Assembly: GCA_021776075.1 (NCBI GenBank) | Contig: JAJFGQ010000024.1 | Coordinates: 1-55,653 of the forward strand | DNA from: Alphaproteobacteria bacterium | GTDB taxonomy: Bacteria > Pseudomonadota > Alphaproteobacteria > Micavibrionales > Micavibrionaceae | Direction of reading: 5' to 3' | Length of the DNA stretch: 55,653 nucleotides | Shown: positions 37,650-52,811 of the stretch, piece by piece | How positions within the stretch are numbered: the first letter of the stretch is position 1 | Layout: every line of letters begins with the position of its first letter | Notes under the pieces: model-generated | What the model was told of the DNA's origin: nothing | What the model saw: only the letters and a program-made list of their open reading frames with translations | Databases searched by the model: none | Program-made: the position numbers and the translations under genes

Positions 37650-38411
37650 ATGCGTCATAAACACACATACAAATACAAACATGCCGTTCTTGCCTTGCTG
37701 GCAAGCTGCACACTCTCCGCTTGCGGCTCTCTGGACAGGCTGGCGCAGGTCGGCAAAGCACCGGAAATGTCTCAAATTCAAAACCCGCAACTGCAAGCAA
37801 ATTACAGACCGGTGAGCATGCCGATGCCCGCACCGCAAACCTCATTGAAGCAACCCAACTCCCTCTGGTCTTCCAGCCGCCAGACTTTCTTCAAGGATCA
37901 GCGTGCCGGTGATATTGGTGATATTCTGACCGTTCTCATTGATATTAACGATCAGGCAGAACTGGATAACGAAACCGAACGCACACGCAGCAGCAACGAA
38001 GGGGCCGGACTGGATAATCTTCTGGGCTACGAAGCCAGCCTGAACCGTGTCCTTCCTCAGGCCGTAGACAATCAAAACCTGGTTGGACTAGATTCCACCT
38101 CGACACACACAGGCAACGGCACAATCGAACGCGAAGAAGAAATAGAAGTCAGTCTGGCCGCTGTCATCACGCAAATTCTGCCCAATGGCAATTTCGTTAT
38201 TCACGGCAATCAGGAAGTTCGCGTCAATTTTGAAAAACGGATCATCAGTATTGACGGCATCATTCGCCCGGAAGACATCGCCGTGAACAACACCATTACT
38301 CATGACAAAATCGCCGAAGCCCGTATTGCTTATGGCGGCGAAGGACAAATCACAGACGTGCAACAACCGCGCTACGGCCAGCAAGTCTATGATGTTCTGT
38401 TTCCTTTCTAG
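37650..38411 (+). CDS. flgH: Flagellar L-ring lipoprotein FlgH
   Basis: FlgH forms the outer-membrane L ring. It has 253 aa. The lipoprotein signal has a lipobox LSAC with Cys25. The mature protein has SLWSSSRQTFFKDQRAGDIG, then DILTVLIDI and late GNQEVRVNFEKRIISIDGIIRPEDI (about 194-218), all standard for FlgH. It is the last gene of the operon; an imperfect hairpin around a run of nine Cs (38435-38473) and an intrinsic terminator (38499-38525) follow. Confidence 0.97.
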   Translation: MRHKHTYKYKHAVLALLASCTLSACGSLDRLAQVGKAPEMSQIQNPQLQANYRPVSMPMPAPQTSLKQPNSLWSSSRQTFFKDQRAGDIGDILTVLIDINDQAELDNETERTRSSNEGAGLDNLLGYEASLNRVLPQAVDNQNLVGLDSTSTHTGNGTIEREEEIEVSLAAVITQILPNGNFVIHGNQEVRVNFEKRIISIDGIIRPEDIAVNNTITHDKIAEARIAYGGEGQITDVQQPRYGQQVYDVLFPF

Positions 38412-38498
38412 GATAACGATAACAAAAAGAATTATGCCGTCTCTTTACCCCCCCCCACAAAGAAAACGGCATATGACCACCCAACTAAACAACTTCAC

Positions 38499-38525
38499 CG
38501 GCCCCCTAACAGGGGCCGTTTTTTT
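38499..38525 (+). terminator. Intrinsic terminator of the flgFGAH operon
   Basis: CGGCCCC (38499-38505), a six-base loop CTAACA and GGGGCCG (38512-38518) are followed by seven Ts. It lies 88 bases after the flgH stop. The stem is GC-rich and perfect. Confidence 0.85.
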
Positions 38526-38607
38526 ATGCGCAGATAAACAATATGTTAACAAAAAACGGCTATAATTTTAAAAACAGTATATTTATAATGATACAGAGTG
38601 TGTGAAA

Positions 38608-40449
38608 ATGGCGTCCGATTTAGTCAATGAATTTAACGACAGATCTACAGCTAAGTCATCACCGGGCGCAGCGCTCGATGAACAGCCCCGCATATATATG
38701 CCAAACTATAATTCATCCGCTCTTTCTTTTCGTCATATTCTCAAAACAGGTGATGTCACAACCTATCCAAAAGAAATGGATGAAGAAAACCAAACAGTTG
38801 ACTGGAAGAAAGACGATGAATTTAACCGTACAATGACAAAACTGAAAGATAATGTCACCGAAGCCGTTGTAAACGACCCTGAAATGCAAAAACTACTGGA
38901 AAAAGATCAGTGGACACAAGAAGACCGTGTTTCCTGGGAAGAAAAGCTCGGAGAAAAAGTCTCTCAGGAAGTGGACAAAATACCGGCTTTAGATACTTAC
39001 AGGCTCACCCTCGATGAAGGTATAGAAACGCGCCTTGATGGCTTGCAGGAGGAGCTAACAAACGCCGAAAAAGACATTAGTGATGATCCCGTGATGAAAA
39101 CAATCTGGAAAAAACCGGGTTTTACAAATGCTGATGTCTCCTATTTAGAGACTCGCTCAACAGAAATTTATAAAGAGCACCCTCACCTTGATAACTACAT
39201 CAAAACCGGCGGTGACCCAAACACACTTCAGGAAGAGCTCAATAAAGTAAACCAGACACTCGATGATGACCCTGACCTGCGTGCCCTTAATGAGGCTCAT
39301 GATAAAAAATACGGGAAGGACAGTGAATGGAGTGACGAAGATGCAGAAGAATACAACACCCTGCGTAAACAAAAATATGAAGAAGCCGTCGCCAGATCAC
39401 CCGCACTCAGCAAATTTTTAAAAGAAGAAACCAAACACGACCCGGGCCTTGCGGAAACAGACCCCGCACATTTAAACAAAGTCTCTGACGACATGAAAAA
39501 CGGCACACATAAAGTAACCGTAAAATGTGAAGAATTAGCCCTTATCAAAGGCGCCGTCATGCAGGATGTTGAAGACGGTGTTCTGCCCAAAAAATCAGAC
39601 ACAGATGATGTAACGGGGAATAAAAAATACGCTGCCAATTACTATTATGTGGCCGATCATAGTAACAGCGACCCGGACAACCCAAAGCCAGGCGGCCATG
39701 CTTACGTTGTTTCCCCCGTCACAGGAAATGTTTTTGAGACAACGGCAGACCCTTCCGAAGGACAAAGCACTTATAGAAAGGCTACTGACCCCAAACATGG
39801 CTTCAAAGACACTGTTGCAGGAAAACCCGCTGTCTATGTTGATAAAGACGGTGATAAGTCCATATATGGCGGGGCAGACTCCTCCGGGGACCAAGACATA
39901 ATCAAGGCCCGCGAAGAAGCCATAGAGCGGGGCGAGTTTGATAAGCTCAACACGCTGGGCTTTGGTGAAGATGACAAATCAACACAAAAACAAAGCTATC
40001 AAAAACTGTATAAGCAGGATTCATACAGAGAAAGAAAACAAGAGCTTTTGCAAAAACTGGATGCAAGTAGATATAGTTTTTATGCACGCGACAAAGACAA
40101 GCCCTATGCCAGAACAGACTTCCAGTCTGCCGCAGGGGAAGCCACAGAAAAAGAAAGCGTTATCACAACATTCGACAAAAACGGTCAGGAAACCGGCGCT
40201 ATTTTAGCAAGTGACCTGGAGGGTAAAAAGGTTTTGATTCAGGATATCCGTGATGAATCCGGACAATCAACCGGCAAACTCAATATCGGCGTTCTTGATA
40301 CAAAGGAAAACTTCACGATAGACGCAGAACAAATGGGTTCTGTTCCTAACAAAATCTATGAAGGCGCCACACCGGCAGTTAAGCCTGAAGCACCGCAGGT
40401 AAAAGCACCAGCACCGGAAAATCCTTCTAATCAATTTTTAGAAATGTAA
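38608..40449 (+). CDS. Repeat protein with a transglutaminase-like Cys-His pattern
   Basis: A 613-aa soluble, very charged protein with no family that I recognise and no signal peptide. Three related ~60-70-residue units run from about 89 to 277. Each starts with (N/D)DP(E/V/D)(M/L), then a WT/FT/WS-xxD segment, a charged helix and a P(A/H)L. The following region has Cys307 in VKCEELALIKGAVM and His364 in GGHAYVVSPVTGNVFETTAD, with Glu377/Asp381 behind. This spacing resembles the Cys-His-Asp core of transglutaminase/papain-like folds (inference from pattern only). The C-terminus is Pro/Ala-rich. Start: ATG 38608 (GTG 38602 also possible); two TATAAT boxes (38561, 38584) lie upstream. It is separate from the flagellar operon before it and convergent with the gene after it. 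Confidence 0.75.
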   Translation: MASDLVNEFNDRSTAKSSPGAALDEQPRIYMPNYNSSALSFRHILKTGDVTTYPKEMDEENQTVDWKKDDEFNRTMTKLKDNVTEAVVNDPEMQKLLEKDQWTQEDRVSWEEKLGEKVSQEVDKIPALDTYRLTLDEGIETRLDGLQEELTNAEKDISDDPVMKTIWKKPGFTNADVSYLETRSTEIYKEHPHLDNYIKTGGDPNTLQEELNKVNQTLDDDPDLRALNEAHDKKYGKDSEWSDEDAEEYNTLRKQKYEEAVARSPALSKFLKEETKHDPGLAETDPAHLNKVSDDMKNGTHKVTVKCEELALIKGAVMQDVEDGVLPKKSDTDDVTGNKKYAANYYYVADHSNSDPDNPKPGGHAYVVSPVTGNVFETTADPSEGQSTYRKATDPKHGFKDTVAGKPAVYVDKDGDKSIYGGADSSGDQDIIKAREEAIERGEFDKLNTLGFGEDDKSTQKQSYQKLYKQDSYRERKQELLQKLDASRYSFYARDKDKPYARTDFQSAAGEATEKESVITTFDKNGQETGAILASDLEGKKVLIQDIRDESGQSTGKLNIGVLDTKENFTIDAEQMGSVPNKIYEGATPAVKPEAPQVKAPAPENPSNQFLEM

Positions 40450-40451
40450 AT

Positions 40452-41036
40452 TTAAAGAAAATCCAGCGCGCAAAGATGGTCGTAAAAAGCCTGCTTGTTA
40501 TGGCGTGTTTCCCGTGGAAAATTTTTCATCAACAAAGAATAAGCTTTCAAGAGTTTTTTGTGTGAACTCTGAACCAATTTATGCCGGGCATATGATTTTT
40601 TGATATTAGCACGCTTATCTCCTGTTGCAGCGGCCCACTCATTCAAAAATTCATATTGTTCCAAAACGGACTCGATAATCAGCTTTTGCGCTTTATCCAG
40701 TCCCGGCGGGGTTTCAAGCGCGTCCATACTCTGAAAAATCATTCCGACTTCCGTATTATAGTCGCGTATATCCATACCACCGCGCCCATGGTACACATTC
40801 ACCATCACCAAAACCCGCGCCCGCATAGCCAGATCAGTCAGAAAAAAAAGCTCTTTCAAATAGGCGGACTCACGCGGAGCAAGTTCTGTTTGTTTGGAAC
40901 TGAACGGTGTTTGTTGATGGGGAATAGAACGATAAGCATCGTCAACCGTAAAATCATCCTGCGCCCCTACCGGGCAGGAAGAAAAGACCACGGCGAGAAT
41001 TGCCGCAACTAAACACAAACGGACAACGCCCAACAC
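40452..41036 (-). CDS. Exported hypothetical protein downstream of dksA
   Basis: A 194-aa product with a signal peptide (hydrophobic 6-19, cleavage near VGAQDD, residue ~25). The mature part is helical (YLKELFFLTDLAMRARVLVM; KLIIESVLEQYEFLNEWAAA). The start is GTG at 41036, four bases from the dksA stop, so translation is coupled. Only one Cys remains in the mature part, near the end. No family is recognised. Its position in an island of flagellar genes hints at an accessory envelope role, but nothing in the sequence proves it. It is convergent with the 613-aa gene, two bases apart. Confidence 0.7.
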   Translation of the reverse strand: MLGVVRLCLVAAILAVVFSSCPVGAQDDFTVDDAYRSIPHQQTPFSSKQTELAPRESAYLKELFFLTDLAMRARVLVMVNVYHGRGGMDIRDYNTEVGMIFQSMDALETPPGLDKAQKLIIESVLEQYEFLNEWAAATGDKRANIKKSYARHKLVQSSHKKLLKAYSLLMKNFPRETRHNKQAFYDHLCALDFL

Positions 41037-41039
41037 GAA

Positions 41040-41474
41040 CTAATCGTCCCTGTGTGTTCTTTCCATGCGTTCGTGAAGTTCCTGCGCCTCAACGCTCAGC
41101 GTTGCAACAGGCCGTGCATTAAGACGGGCAATCGTAATAGGCTCCCCTGTCTCTTCACAATAACCGTAAGAATCATCATCAACACGCAACAAGGCCTCAT
41201 TGATTTTGCTAATCAGCTTCCGTTCCCGATCACGGGTACGGAGCTCCAACGCATGATCCGTCTCAGCCGAAGCGCGATCAGCCAGATCTGGCTTCTGCAA
41301 TTCCGTTTCCTGTAACGTATTCTGAATTGTATCCGATGATTCCCTCAAAAGCTCTTCCCGCCATGAAATCAATTTCATACGAAAATATTCCTTCATCACA
41401 GGATTCATAAAATCACCCTTATCCTTCTCCGGATCATAATCAGGTGGAAGAAGTACACTGTTTGGCGTTGGCAT
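41040..41474 (-). CDS. dksA: DksA/TraR-family RNA polymerase-binding regulator
   Basis: DksA binds the RNA polymerase secondary channel and works with ppGpp. It has 144 aa. The coiled-coil region contains DRASAETDHALELRTRDRER with the tip-type acidic residues. In the zinc-finger region YGYCEETGEPITIARLNARP, only one of the four canonical cysteines is present; the second is replaced by Thr, and the later pair is missing (ATLSVEAQE). This zinc-poor form is known in alphaproteobacteria. It lies between fliX and a small exported-protein gene, on the same strand as both. Confidence 0.92.
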   Translation of the reverse strand: MPTPNSVLLPPDYDPEKDKGDFMNPVMKEYFRMKLISWREELLRESSDTIQNTLQETELQKPDLADRASAETDHALELRTRDRERKLISKINEALLRVDDDSYGYCEETGEPITIARLNARPVATLSVEAQELHERMERTHRDD

Positions 41475-50536: not shown

Positions 50537-50591
50537 CTATTCCACGCTATTGTGTGAAACTACAGAGACAGGACAACAAAGGATAAGTTCC

Positions 50592-52811
50592 ATGAACCGC
50601 AAACAAAGACGCGCCCAAGGCCCGCAGGCAAAGCCGACTGAAGATTTAGGGCGCTCCTTTACGGAAGGTATGAAGCTCTACCGTGCAAAATCTTTCACGC
50701 AAGCCGAAAAAATATTCAAAAATATTGTCCAGAAAGCCCCGCACCACGCAGACTCTCAACATATTCTGGGGAGCATCTATCTGGGCAAGGGACAAGCGGC
50801 CAAAGCACTCGTCCCCCTTAAAGCGGCTCTAGACCTGCAACCGGACAATGCCGAATATTACAACAGCCTTGGCAAAGCCCTGAAAGACAACAAAAAATTC
50901 GATAAAGCTATTGAATGCTTCACGCGCGCGCTCGACTTACAATCCGATTACGCCGATGCGCATTTTTCCATTGTGACACTGAAACAAAAAAACCCGGATA
51001 TTGATATCGACCTGAAAGACCTCAACAAAAAATATGCCTCCCCGGAACTGGCAGAGGCTTACAAAACCATTGGCCAGATTTTAAGGAGCAAGGACAAATA
51101 CAAAGAATCCATTGCCAGCTTCATACAAGCCACACAGTTACAGCCGGATGATGCCGAAGCATTTTCCTATCTGGCTTTGGCGCATCTGGTCAATAACGAA
51201 ACTGCTGATGCCCTGTTCTCTATCAAAAAGGCTATACAAAAGGACCCGGACAACCCGGAATATAAAATCTATCTCTCCTATATATTGTCGAACAACAGGC
51301 TGACCCAGTTTGATCCTGACCTCAAGGCCCTCATAGAAGAGGTTCTGGCCCACAAGAATGTCAGCCTACAGCTTTTCACAAGCGCGTGGTTTTCGCACCT
51401 GCTGATAGACCCTGAATTTTCAGCTATTAATGACGCTCTGGCCCTTGATAATTACGACGCGTTTGAAAAATGGATAAGCGCCCTTCCCGACTTAACTTTC
51501 CTGAACGAACCCTATCTTCTGAACGGCCTGAAAAAGCTTCTTATTCCTCACCGGGAACTGGAACGCTTCTTCACCTTTTGCAGACGTCACCTTTTAAACA
51601 GCGCAGACACAACGCCTCTCCTGCCCTTTCTCACGGCCCTTGCCGAGCATTCTTTCCTGAATGAATATGTTTTCCACGAAACGACTGAGGAAAAAGAACA
51701 GGTCGCCGCGCTTGAAAAAGATATCCGGGAGAATTTCACGTCTTTTGACGATGCGGAACTGATCCGCAAAACGGCCCTTCTCTCCTGCTACAAAGCGCTG
51801 TTTGAATGGATGGACGACAATACGGATTTGCAGGATCGCTGCCGCGCCATAGACGATAAAAACTTCCAAAGCGTCTTTACGATCCAGATGGAAGAACCGC
51901 TGGAGGAACGCGCCATAAAAGAAAACATCGAACATATTGGAGAGATCGAAAATAAAATCTCGCAGGCCGTGCGCGAACAATATGAGGAAAACCCCTATCC
52001 GCGCTGGAATGCGATTAAAACGGTCAAGACCACGATGAACGACAATGACTTTCTGGCCAACAGGACAAATGCCCGTTACAAAATCCTCCTCCCCGGCTGT
52101 GGTACAGGTCAGCAATCCATACAGAACTGCGTCACTTTCCCGGATTCCGACATACTGGCCGTCGATCTCAGCCAATCCAGCCTCGCCTATGCCATACGCA
52201 AAACCAAAGAATACGGCTTTGACAATATCACTTATAAACATGCCGATATTTTGCAACTCAACACACTCGACCGGCAGTTTGACATTATAGAGTGCACGGG
52301 CGTCATTCATCATATGGAAGACCCCATGGCCGGGTGGCGCGTCCTCACAGACCTTCTCAGACCCGGCGGTTACATGAAACTCGGCTTGTATAGTGAAATC
52401 GCCCGGCAAGGCATTGTGACAGCCCGTGAACTCATCGCCGATATGGGGCTGGGTAACACAGCAGATGATATCCGCAAGGGCCGGGCACTTATAAAAGACC
52501 ATCCCGATCAGAAAGCTTTAAGCACAATTTTCCTGAGCAGTGATTTTTACTCTCTCTCCATGTGCCGTGATCTGGTTTTTCATGTGCAGGAGCACCGCTT
52601 TACCATCCCCCAAATTCAGGACTGCCTGAAAGAACTGGGCCTGCAATTCCAGAGCTTCAGCCTCTCCAATGCCCAGGTCAGTCACGGATACAAAAAAATG
52701 TTCCCCGATGATGCCGACGGGAACAACCTCAATAACTGGCATCAATATGAAGAAGCAAACCCAACGACCTTCGCCAAAATGTACCAGTTCTGGATGCATA
52801 AACCGGGGTGA
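50592..52811 (+). CDS. TPR-repeat class I SAM-dependent methyltransferase
   Basis: A 739-aa cytoplasmic protein. It starts MNRKQRRAQG, a common opening of alphaproteobacterial TPR-methyltransferase proteins. The ATG at 50592 is used because AAAGGA is eight bases upstream. TPR helices run from about 20 to 235 (for example ADSQHILGSIYLGKGQAAKA and NAEYYNSLGKALKDNKKFDK). A helical middle follows, and then from ~455 ENPYPRWN and the methyltransferase domain: motif I LPGCGTG at 500-506, LAVDLSQSSL, and IECTGVIHHMEDP (post-I/IV). It sits between the hook operon and flagellin, so modification of flagellin or another surface protein is plausible but unproven. The substrate is unknown. Confidence 0.85.
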   Translation: MNRKQRRAQGPQAKPTEDLGRSFTEGMKLYRAKSFTQAEKIFKNIVQKAPHHADSQHILGSIYLGKGQAAKALVPLKAALDLQPDNAEYYNSLGKALKDNKKFDKAIECFTRALDLQSDYADAHFSIVTLKQKNPDIDIDLKDLNKKYASPELAEAYKTIGQILRSKDKYKESIASFIQATQLQPDDAEAFSYLALAHLVNNETADALFSIKKAIQKDPDNPEYKIYLSYILSNNRLTQFDPDLKALIEEVLAHKNVSLQLFTSAWFSHLLIDPEFSAINDALALDNYDAFEKWISALPDLTFLNEPYLLNGLKKLLIPHRELERFFTFCRRHLLNSADTTPLLPFLTALAEHSFLNEYVFHETTEEKEQVAALEKDIRENFTSFDDAELIRKTALLSCYKALFEWMDDNTDLQDRCRAIDDKNFQSVFTIQMEEPLEERAIKENIEHIGEIENKISQAVREQYEENPYPRWNAIKTVKTTMNDNDFLANRTNARYKILLPGCGTGQQSIQNCVTFPDSDILAVDLSQSSLAYAIRKTKEYGFDNITYKHADILQLNTLDRQFDIIECTGVIHHMEDPMAGWRVLTDLLRPGGYMKLGLYSEIARQGIVTARELIADMGLGNTADDIRKGRALIKDHPDQKALSTIFLSSDFYSLSMCRDLVFHVQEHRFTIPQIQDCLKELGLQFQSFSLSNAQVSHGYKKMFPDDADGNNLNNWHQYEEANPTTFAKMYQFWMHKPG

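Follow-up and report, generated by a model that had tools for sequence, protein, structure and literature searches.

The window, i.e. the whole stretch of 55,653 nucleotides that was analysed, contains a gap of 2.6 kb between flgH and dksA (positions 38411–41043), which holds two convergent genes. The gene on the forward strand (38608–40449, with an alternative in-frame GTG start at 38602) encodes a protein of 613 amino acids, here designated P0001. The other, on the reverse strand (40455–41036), encodes 194 aa that include a signal peptide and match nothing in Pfam; across the order, this protein turned up in 25 of 142 genomes, at scattered locations. It was considered as an immunity partner of P0001 and rejected, as most of these 25 genomes lack relatives of P0001, and in genomes that have both (G033, G115 and G116) the two are on different contigs. 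The 194-aa gene is thus distributed independently of the P0001 family and is not a partner of P0001.

An intrinsic terminator of seven G-C pairs followed by TTTTTTT (38499–38518, forward strand) lies between flgH and the P0001 gene, and a perfect TATAAT (38561–38566, forward strand), a weak candidate promoter recognised by direct reading, is located 42 nt before the ATG. A promoter scan did not report this TATAAT, and a good -35 element was not found. The terminator after flgH together with the TATAAT indicates that the P0001 gene is probably its own transcription unit, outside the flagellar operon. P0001 had been described as standing alone inside a flagellar island; the neighbours are indeed flagellar genes, but a strong terminator separates the gene from flgH and the 194-aa gene shares the gap. 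In related loci L129, L131 and L138, the next genes, ~150 bp past flgH, are dksA and fliX, encoded on the opposite strand, and other relatives carry different orphan genes at the flgH-dksA junction, which was also compared in L130, L133, L134 and L135. Hence, the junction is variable. Further along the window, directly before a flagellin-like gene, a 753-aa protein with TPR and methyltransferase regions (50550–52811, forward strand) is encoded, which is possibly flagellin-modifying.

The open reading frame, coordinates and length of P0001 given in the original prediction were all reproduced, and the motifs VKCEELALIKGAVM (with Cys307) and GGHAYVVSPVTGNVFETTAD (with His364 and Glu377) were found at the residue numbers assigned to them. 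With 65 Asp, 58 Glu, 62 Lys and 20 Arg residues, a net charge of -41 and a pI of 4.7, P0001 is highly charged, as had been claimed, and inspection agreed that a signal peptide is absent. Cys307 is the single cysteine of the protein. No GGxGxD nonapeptide repeats (RTX) were seen on reading the sequence. Comparison of P0001 with Pfam, NCBIfam, PHROG, PADLOC and PDB gave no meaningful matches. Specifically, the Transglut_core profile (PF01841) did not match P0001 at E-values up to 1 or 12 members of its family at E-values up to 5. A PduO-type match at aa 134–205 was rejected, as it falls in a helical insertion (see below) and scored 20 bits against an NCBIfam cut-off of 108.

Relatives of P0001 were sought in 58 related genomes, then in 142 genomes of the order, and in 385 genomes drawn across the class. 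They were found in nine of the 142 genomes, all belonging to one bacterial family of small-genome Alphaproteobacteria, and the 385 genomes yielded no further relatives outside that bacterial family. A scan of species genomes with a three-member alignment gave two loci, L031 and L032, both in 'Alphaproteobacteria bacterium' metagenome assemblies, one of which is G016's own contig. No relatives were detected in the viral contigs scanned. A second copy is found in the host genome (contig C10), and no fewer than four copies in G016. In G115 (L025, contig C31), only the N-terminal part of the gene is present, as a short frame, which reflects either decay of the copy or a break in the assembly. Including L032, there are 13 full-length members, which are divergent (24–34% identity) and which elsewhere are encoded by single genes among unrelated housekeeping genes. 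One G016 paralogue is close to flagellar-looking genes.

Nine alignment columns are invariant in all 13 members, namely R107, E111, Y131, N290, C307, G315, Q319, Y345 and H364 (P0001 numbering). Cys307, the candidate nucleophile (codon 39526–39528, forward strand), and His364 (39697–39699, forward strand) are thus both retained at 24–34% identity, and the poor conservation that would have counted against the original prediction was not seen. The position of Glu377 (39736–39738, forward strand) is acidic throughout, being Glu in 11 members and Asp in two, and lies 13 residues past the His in every member. A Cys-His-His set of the NlpC/P60 type is therefore not present. The conserved Cys is the sole cysteine of seven of the 13 members, and two more have other cysteines only in doubtful N-terminal extensions. 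P0001 is a member of a small, previously unnamed family that retains a putative Cys-His-acid catalytic set, and such retention is the trace expected of an active Cys-His-acid enzyme.

AlphaFold models were built with three sequences as input, and both models considered here are of low confidence: that of P0001 has a mean pLDDT of 54 and a pTM of 0.39, and that of residues 1–292 of L032 a mean pLDDT of 51 and a pTM of 0.59. In both, the Cys opens a long helix, and of the three strands that come after it, the second carries the His and the third the acid. In the P0001 model, helix 307–325 begins with Cys307, strand 346–352 precedes strand 362–368 bearing His364, and Glu377 lies on strand 375–380. 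In the L032 model, C177 opens helix 177–199, H232 is in strand 227–236 and E245 in strand 243–246. The papain-like core has been defined by a Cys at a helix N-terminus, a His on β2 and a polar residue on β3 (PMC10318531), and the order in both models is the same. Thus, the structure prediction, albeit at low confidence, places the Cys307 and His364 positions on the helix and strand needed by a transglutaminase/papain core.

The alignments and the P0001 model define the domain layout, all on the forward strand. Residues 1–136 (38608–39015) form a conserved N-terminal domain containing R107, E111 and Y131, with modelled helices at 70–88, 91–98 and 104–123. It is followed by an inserted helical region at aa 137–283 (39016–39456), absent from the other 12 members, the putative cysteine-enzyme core at aa 284–421 (39457–39870), a variable C-terminal region at aa 422–599 (39871–40404) that cannot be aligned across the family, and the tail ...ENPSNQFLEM (40405–40446). 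Three internal repeats had been proposed, and the model does show three long-short-long-short helix units at about 70–129, 138–199 and 204–276. In shuffling tests on hand-chosen segments, unit 1 resembled units 2 and 3 with z of 5.1 and 5.3, respectively, but units 2 and 3 resembled each other with z of 1.5 only, and when P0001 was searched with an HMM derived from the unit 1 of homologues, only unit 1 was recognised. Unit 1 occurs in all members and represents the helical domain proper to the family; units 2 and 3 are an insertion specific to P0001. The repeat proposal is borne out in part. Two G016 paralogues, L036 (aa 468–490 of 600) and L037 (aa 414–434 of 548), have a weak C-terminal peptidoglycan-binding match that other members do not (E 0.0068 and 0.0083, below the cut-off).

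Structural neighbours of the L032 model were sought by re-alignment of Foldseek candidates (VIA). The five best were four Rad4 entries and transglutaminase 2, all with the transglutaminase fold, and Rad4 is closely related to Transglut_core (PMC10318531). The best Z was 4.3, for a model with a pLDDT of 51, and is under the tool's informative level. Lower rows included a LapG-type chain (4u65_E, identity checked) and a putative cysteine protease (3isr); no NlpC or CHAP chains were among the best 50 matches, which is not an exclusion. Foldseek alone found no matches with E under 1 for the L032 model in the PDB and viral libraries. A fold search with the P0001 model was set aside, as it returned only matches to the helical repeat part (BAR, coiled-coil; Z up to 5.1), which are uninformative for a helical array.

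The original prediction had named a profile–profile search as a check. In profile–profile comparison, similarity to the transglutaminase, C93, NlpC/P60 or CHAP sets did not reach significance. With the transglutaminase set the His strands were in register, and 76 of 150 column-permuted profiles scored equally well; with the C93 set the Cys helices were in register, with an hhalign P of 0.085 and an equal score for 20 of 150 permutations. Given a Z of about 4, which is too low alone, the null Foldseek result and the non-significant profile comparison, homology of the P0001 family to the transglutaminase group is likely but not proven.

Like the transglutaminase group, the family places its Cys where the helix starts and its His and acid on strands 2 and 3, respectively; it also has HA[YFI][IV] followed by an acid, and its top structural neighbours are from that group. 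It differs in lacking a match at the Pfam or profile level, in an acid that is mostly Glu, and in a unique N-terminal helical domain and its own R107, E111, Y131, N290 and Q319. The LapG-type C93 proteases (PF06035) share DCE/DCED at the nucleophile and an acid after an HA[VYI] strand. One of the structural neighbours is a LapG chain, and C93-like genes occur in the same genomes. However, the LapG-type proteins of these genomes have GDCEDYAIAKY and an Asp 15 residues past the His, in contrast to 13 residues and a different helix sequence in the P0001 family. The proposed transglutaminase/papain core gains from the residue conservation, the model layout and the structural neighbours, and is held back by the low Z and the profile comparison; conservation supports it well, structure weakly. 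From the sequences and models, P0001 is very likely a transglutaminase/papain-like cysteine enzyme, and retention of the Cys-His-acid set suggests that it is probably protein-modifying or protein-cutting.

Composition bears on a possible export of the family. No member has a signal peptide by inspection. The members are more acidic than the products of neighbouring genes (median pI 4.7 vs 5.6, P 7e-5) and poorer in cysteine (0.22% vs 0.87%, P 0.018). Both acidity and Cys scarcity have been described for T1SS effectors (PMC4315096), and RTX proteins are mostly acidic (PMC3034196). A hydrophobic-x-hydrophobic end, optionally followed by Gly, is shared by 12 of the 13 members, as compared with 11% of 127 background proteins, for a pattern that was defined post hoc. 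T1SS substrates can be recognised by an excess of L, D, A, V, T, S, I and F in the last 60 residues, and such an excess is not seen here: these residues make up 45% in P0001 and a median of 53% in the family, equal to the background of 53%. All nine carrier genomes have T1SS-type ABC transporters, with complete TolC-ABC-HlyD operons in G010 and two in the host; T1SS genes are widespread, however, and those found here may have nothing to do with P0001. VirB4 is absent from eight of the nine carriers and the T6SS sheath protein from all nine. Taken together, the acidity, Cys scarcity, tail and T1SS operons, set against the missing bias of the last 60 residues, make T1SS export plausible but unproven, and we give export of P0001 by this route an even chance.

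Two further orphans are acidic, Cys-free and signal-less. One (L034:7549–8826), beside the G010 member, has an HELKH motif and a weak match to the effector family Peptidase_M91 (E 0.0075, below the cut-off), and its tail ...SPDTMKMG resembles the ...SSDGIKIG of the neighbouring family member. The other occupies the flgH-dksA junction of G006 (L135:2255–3397), has a weak PG_binding_1 match (Pfam E 0.00023, just below the cut-off) and ends in ...AAMSLG. Both are unrelated to the P0001 family, yet their tails are similar in style. A search of nine genomes for an [IM]K[IM]G-stop DNA pattern mainly hit Rieske-like proteins and frames that were short or spurious, and a hidden substrate set was not found. 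From a count of acidic, Cys-poor proteins, which was contaminated by family members that had escaped the filter, the listing was used and the P value left aside. A broader proposal, that the family comprises lineage-specific transglutaminase-like effectors exported by T1SS with a short, undescribed tail as the signal, also borne by unrelated orphan cargo such as the M91-like and G006 proteins, is in our view doubtful.

Among known systems, the family resembles non-RTX T1SS substrates such as the Orientia Ank proteins (PMC4315096), being acidic, with few or no cysteines, signal-less and accompanied by T1SS operons in the host, but the composition described for such substrates is missing from its last 60 residues. 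A variable architecture around a papain-like core, scattered orphans and the M91-like neighbour in G010 recall papain-like toxins and injected effectors. Unlike these toxins and effectors of polymorphic toxin and secretion systems, the family lacks a toxin trailer architecture and a linked immunity gene, and the T4SS and T6SS markers searched for are missing in most carriers.

The whole reading that we favour, by a modest degree, is that P0001 is an exported transglutaminase-like cysteine enzyme of a lineage-restricted family. An exported papain-like enzyme that acts on cell walls by cutting peptidoglycan, as NlpC/P60 or CHAP enzymes do, appears unlikely. The GHAYVV...VFE segment is similar to the His strand of those enzymes, Cys, His and a polar residue follow one another in CHAP as they do here, the CHAP and NlpC/P60 profiles score no worse than the transglutaminase ones, and the weak peptidoglycan-binding matches of the two G016 paralogues would fit. 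However, the third residue of NlpC/P60 is His (PMC10318531) and not the Glu or Asp of this family, the structural neighbours come from the transglutaminase group, and most members, including P0001, lack a wall-binding domain. A structural or binding protein that has kept the fold and lost catalysis, like Rad4/XPC, seems slightly less likely again: the top structural match is indeed Rad4, an inactive transglutaminase-fold protein, but inactive relatives usually lose the triad, whereas this family keeps Cys, His and acid in every member while most columns vary.

The position of the gene between flgH and flgI, and that of one G016 paralogue, could point to a flagellar accessory protein, i.e. a protease or regulator of flagellar assembly. 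This is highly improbable, given the terminator after flgH, the housekeeping surroundings of other members, and the relatives with the same flagellar order, which have nothing or unrelated genes from flgH to dksA. Moreover, flgH is found in 18 of the 19 relatives searched, as compared with nine of 142 genomes of the order for the P0001 family.

If P0001 is an exported transglutaminase-like enzyme, the attack by Cys307 would be on a peptide carbonyl or on the side chain of a glutamine, His364 and Glu377 would make up the rest of the triad, and the target protein would be cleaved, deamidated or cross-linked. The choice of target may fall to the N-terminal helical domain, enlarged in P0001 by the two extra units, together with the variable C-terminal region. 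In the absence of a signal peptide, the protein would leave the cell most likely via a host T1SS, using its C-terminal end. The suggestion of a protein-modifying enzyme or an effector is a reasonable one. It builds on the observed conservation of the three residues, the predicted helix and strand order, the composition, the tail, the placement of the gene and the T1SS operons, from which the fold membership, the catalysis, the substrate and the export are inferred.

The enzyme class itself is old and well known, so that the family is new and the kind of system is not, and the surprise is moderate. The papain/transglutaminase enzymes nevertheless gain a previously unnamed family in which three residues can be tested, and it comes from uncultured Alphaproteobacteria, about whose secreted proteins hardly anything is known. 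Export of the family, if real, would point to a set of orphan effector-like proteins and to a simple tail that could serve to find more of them.
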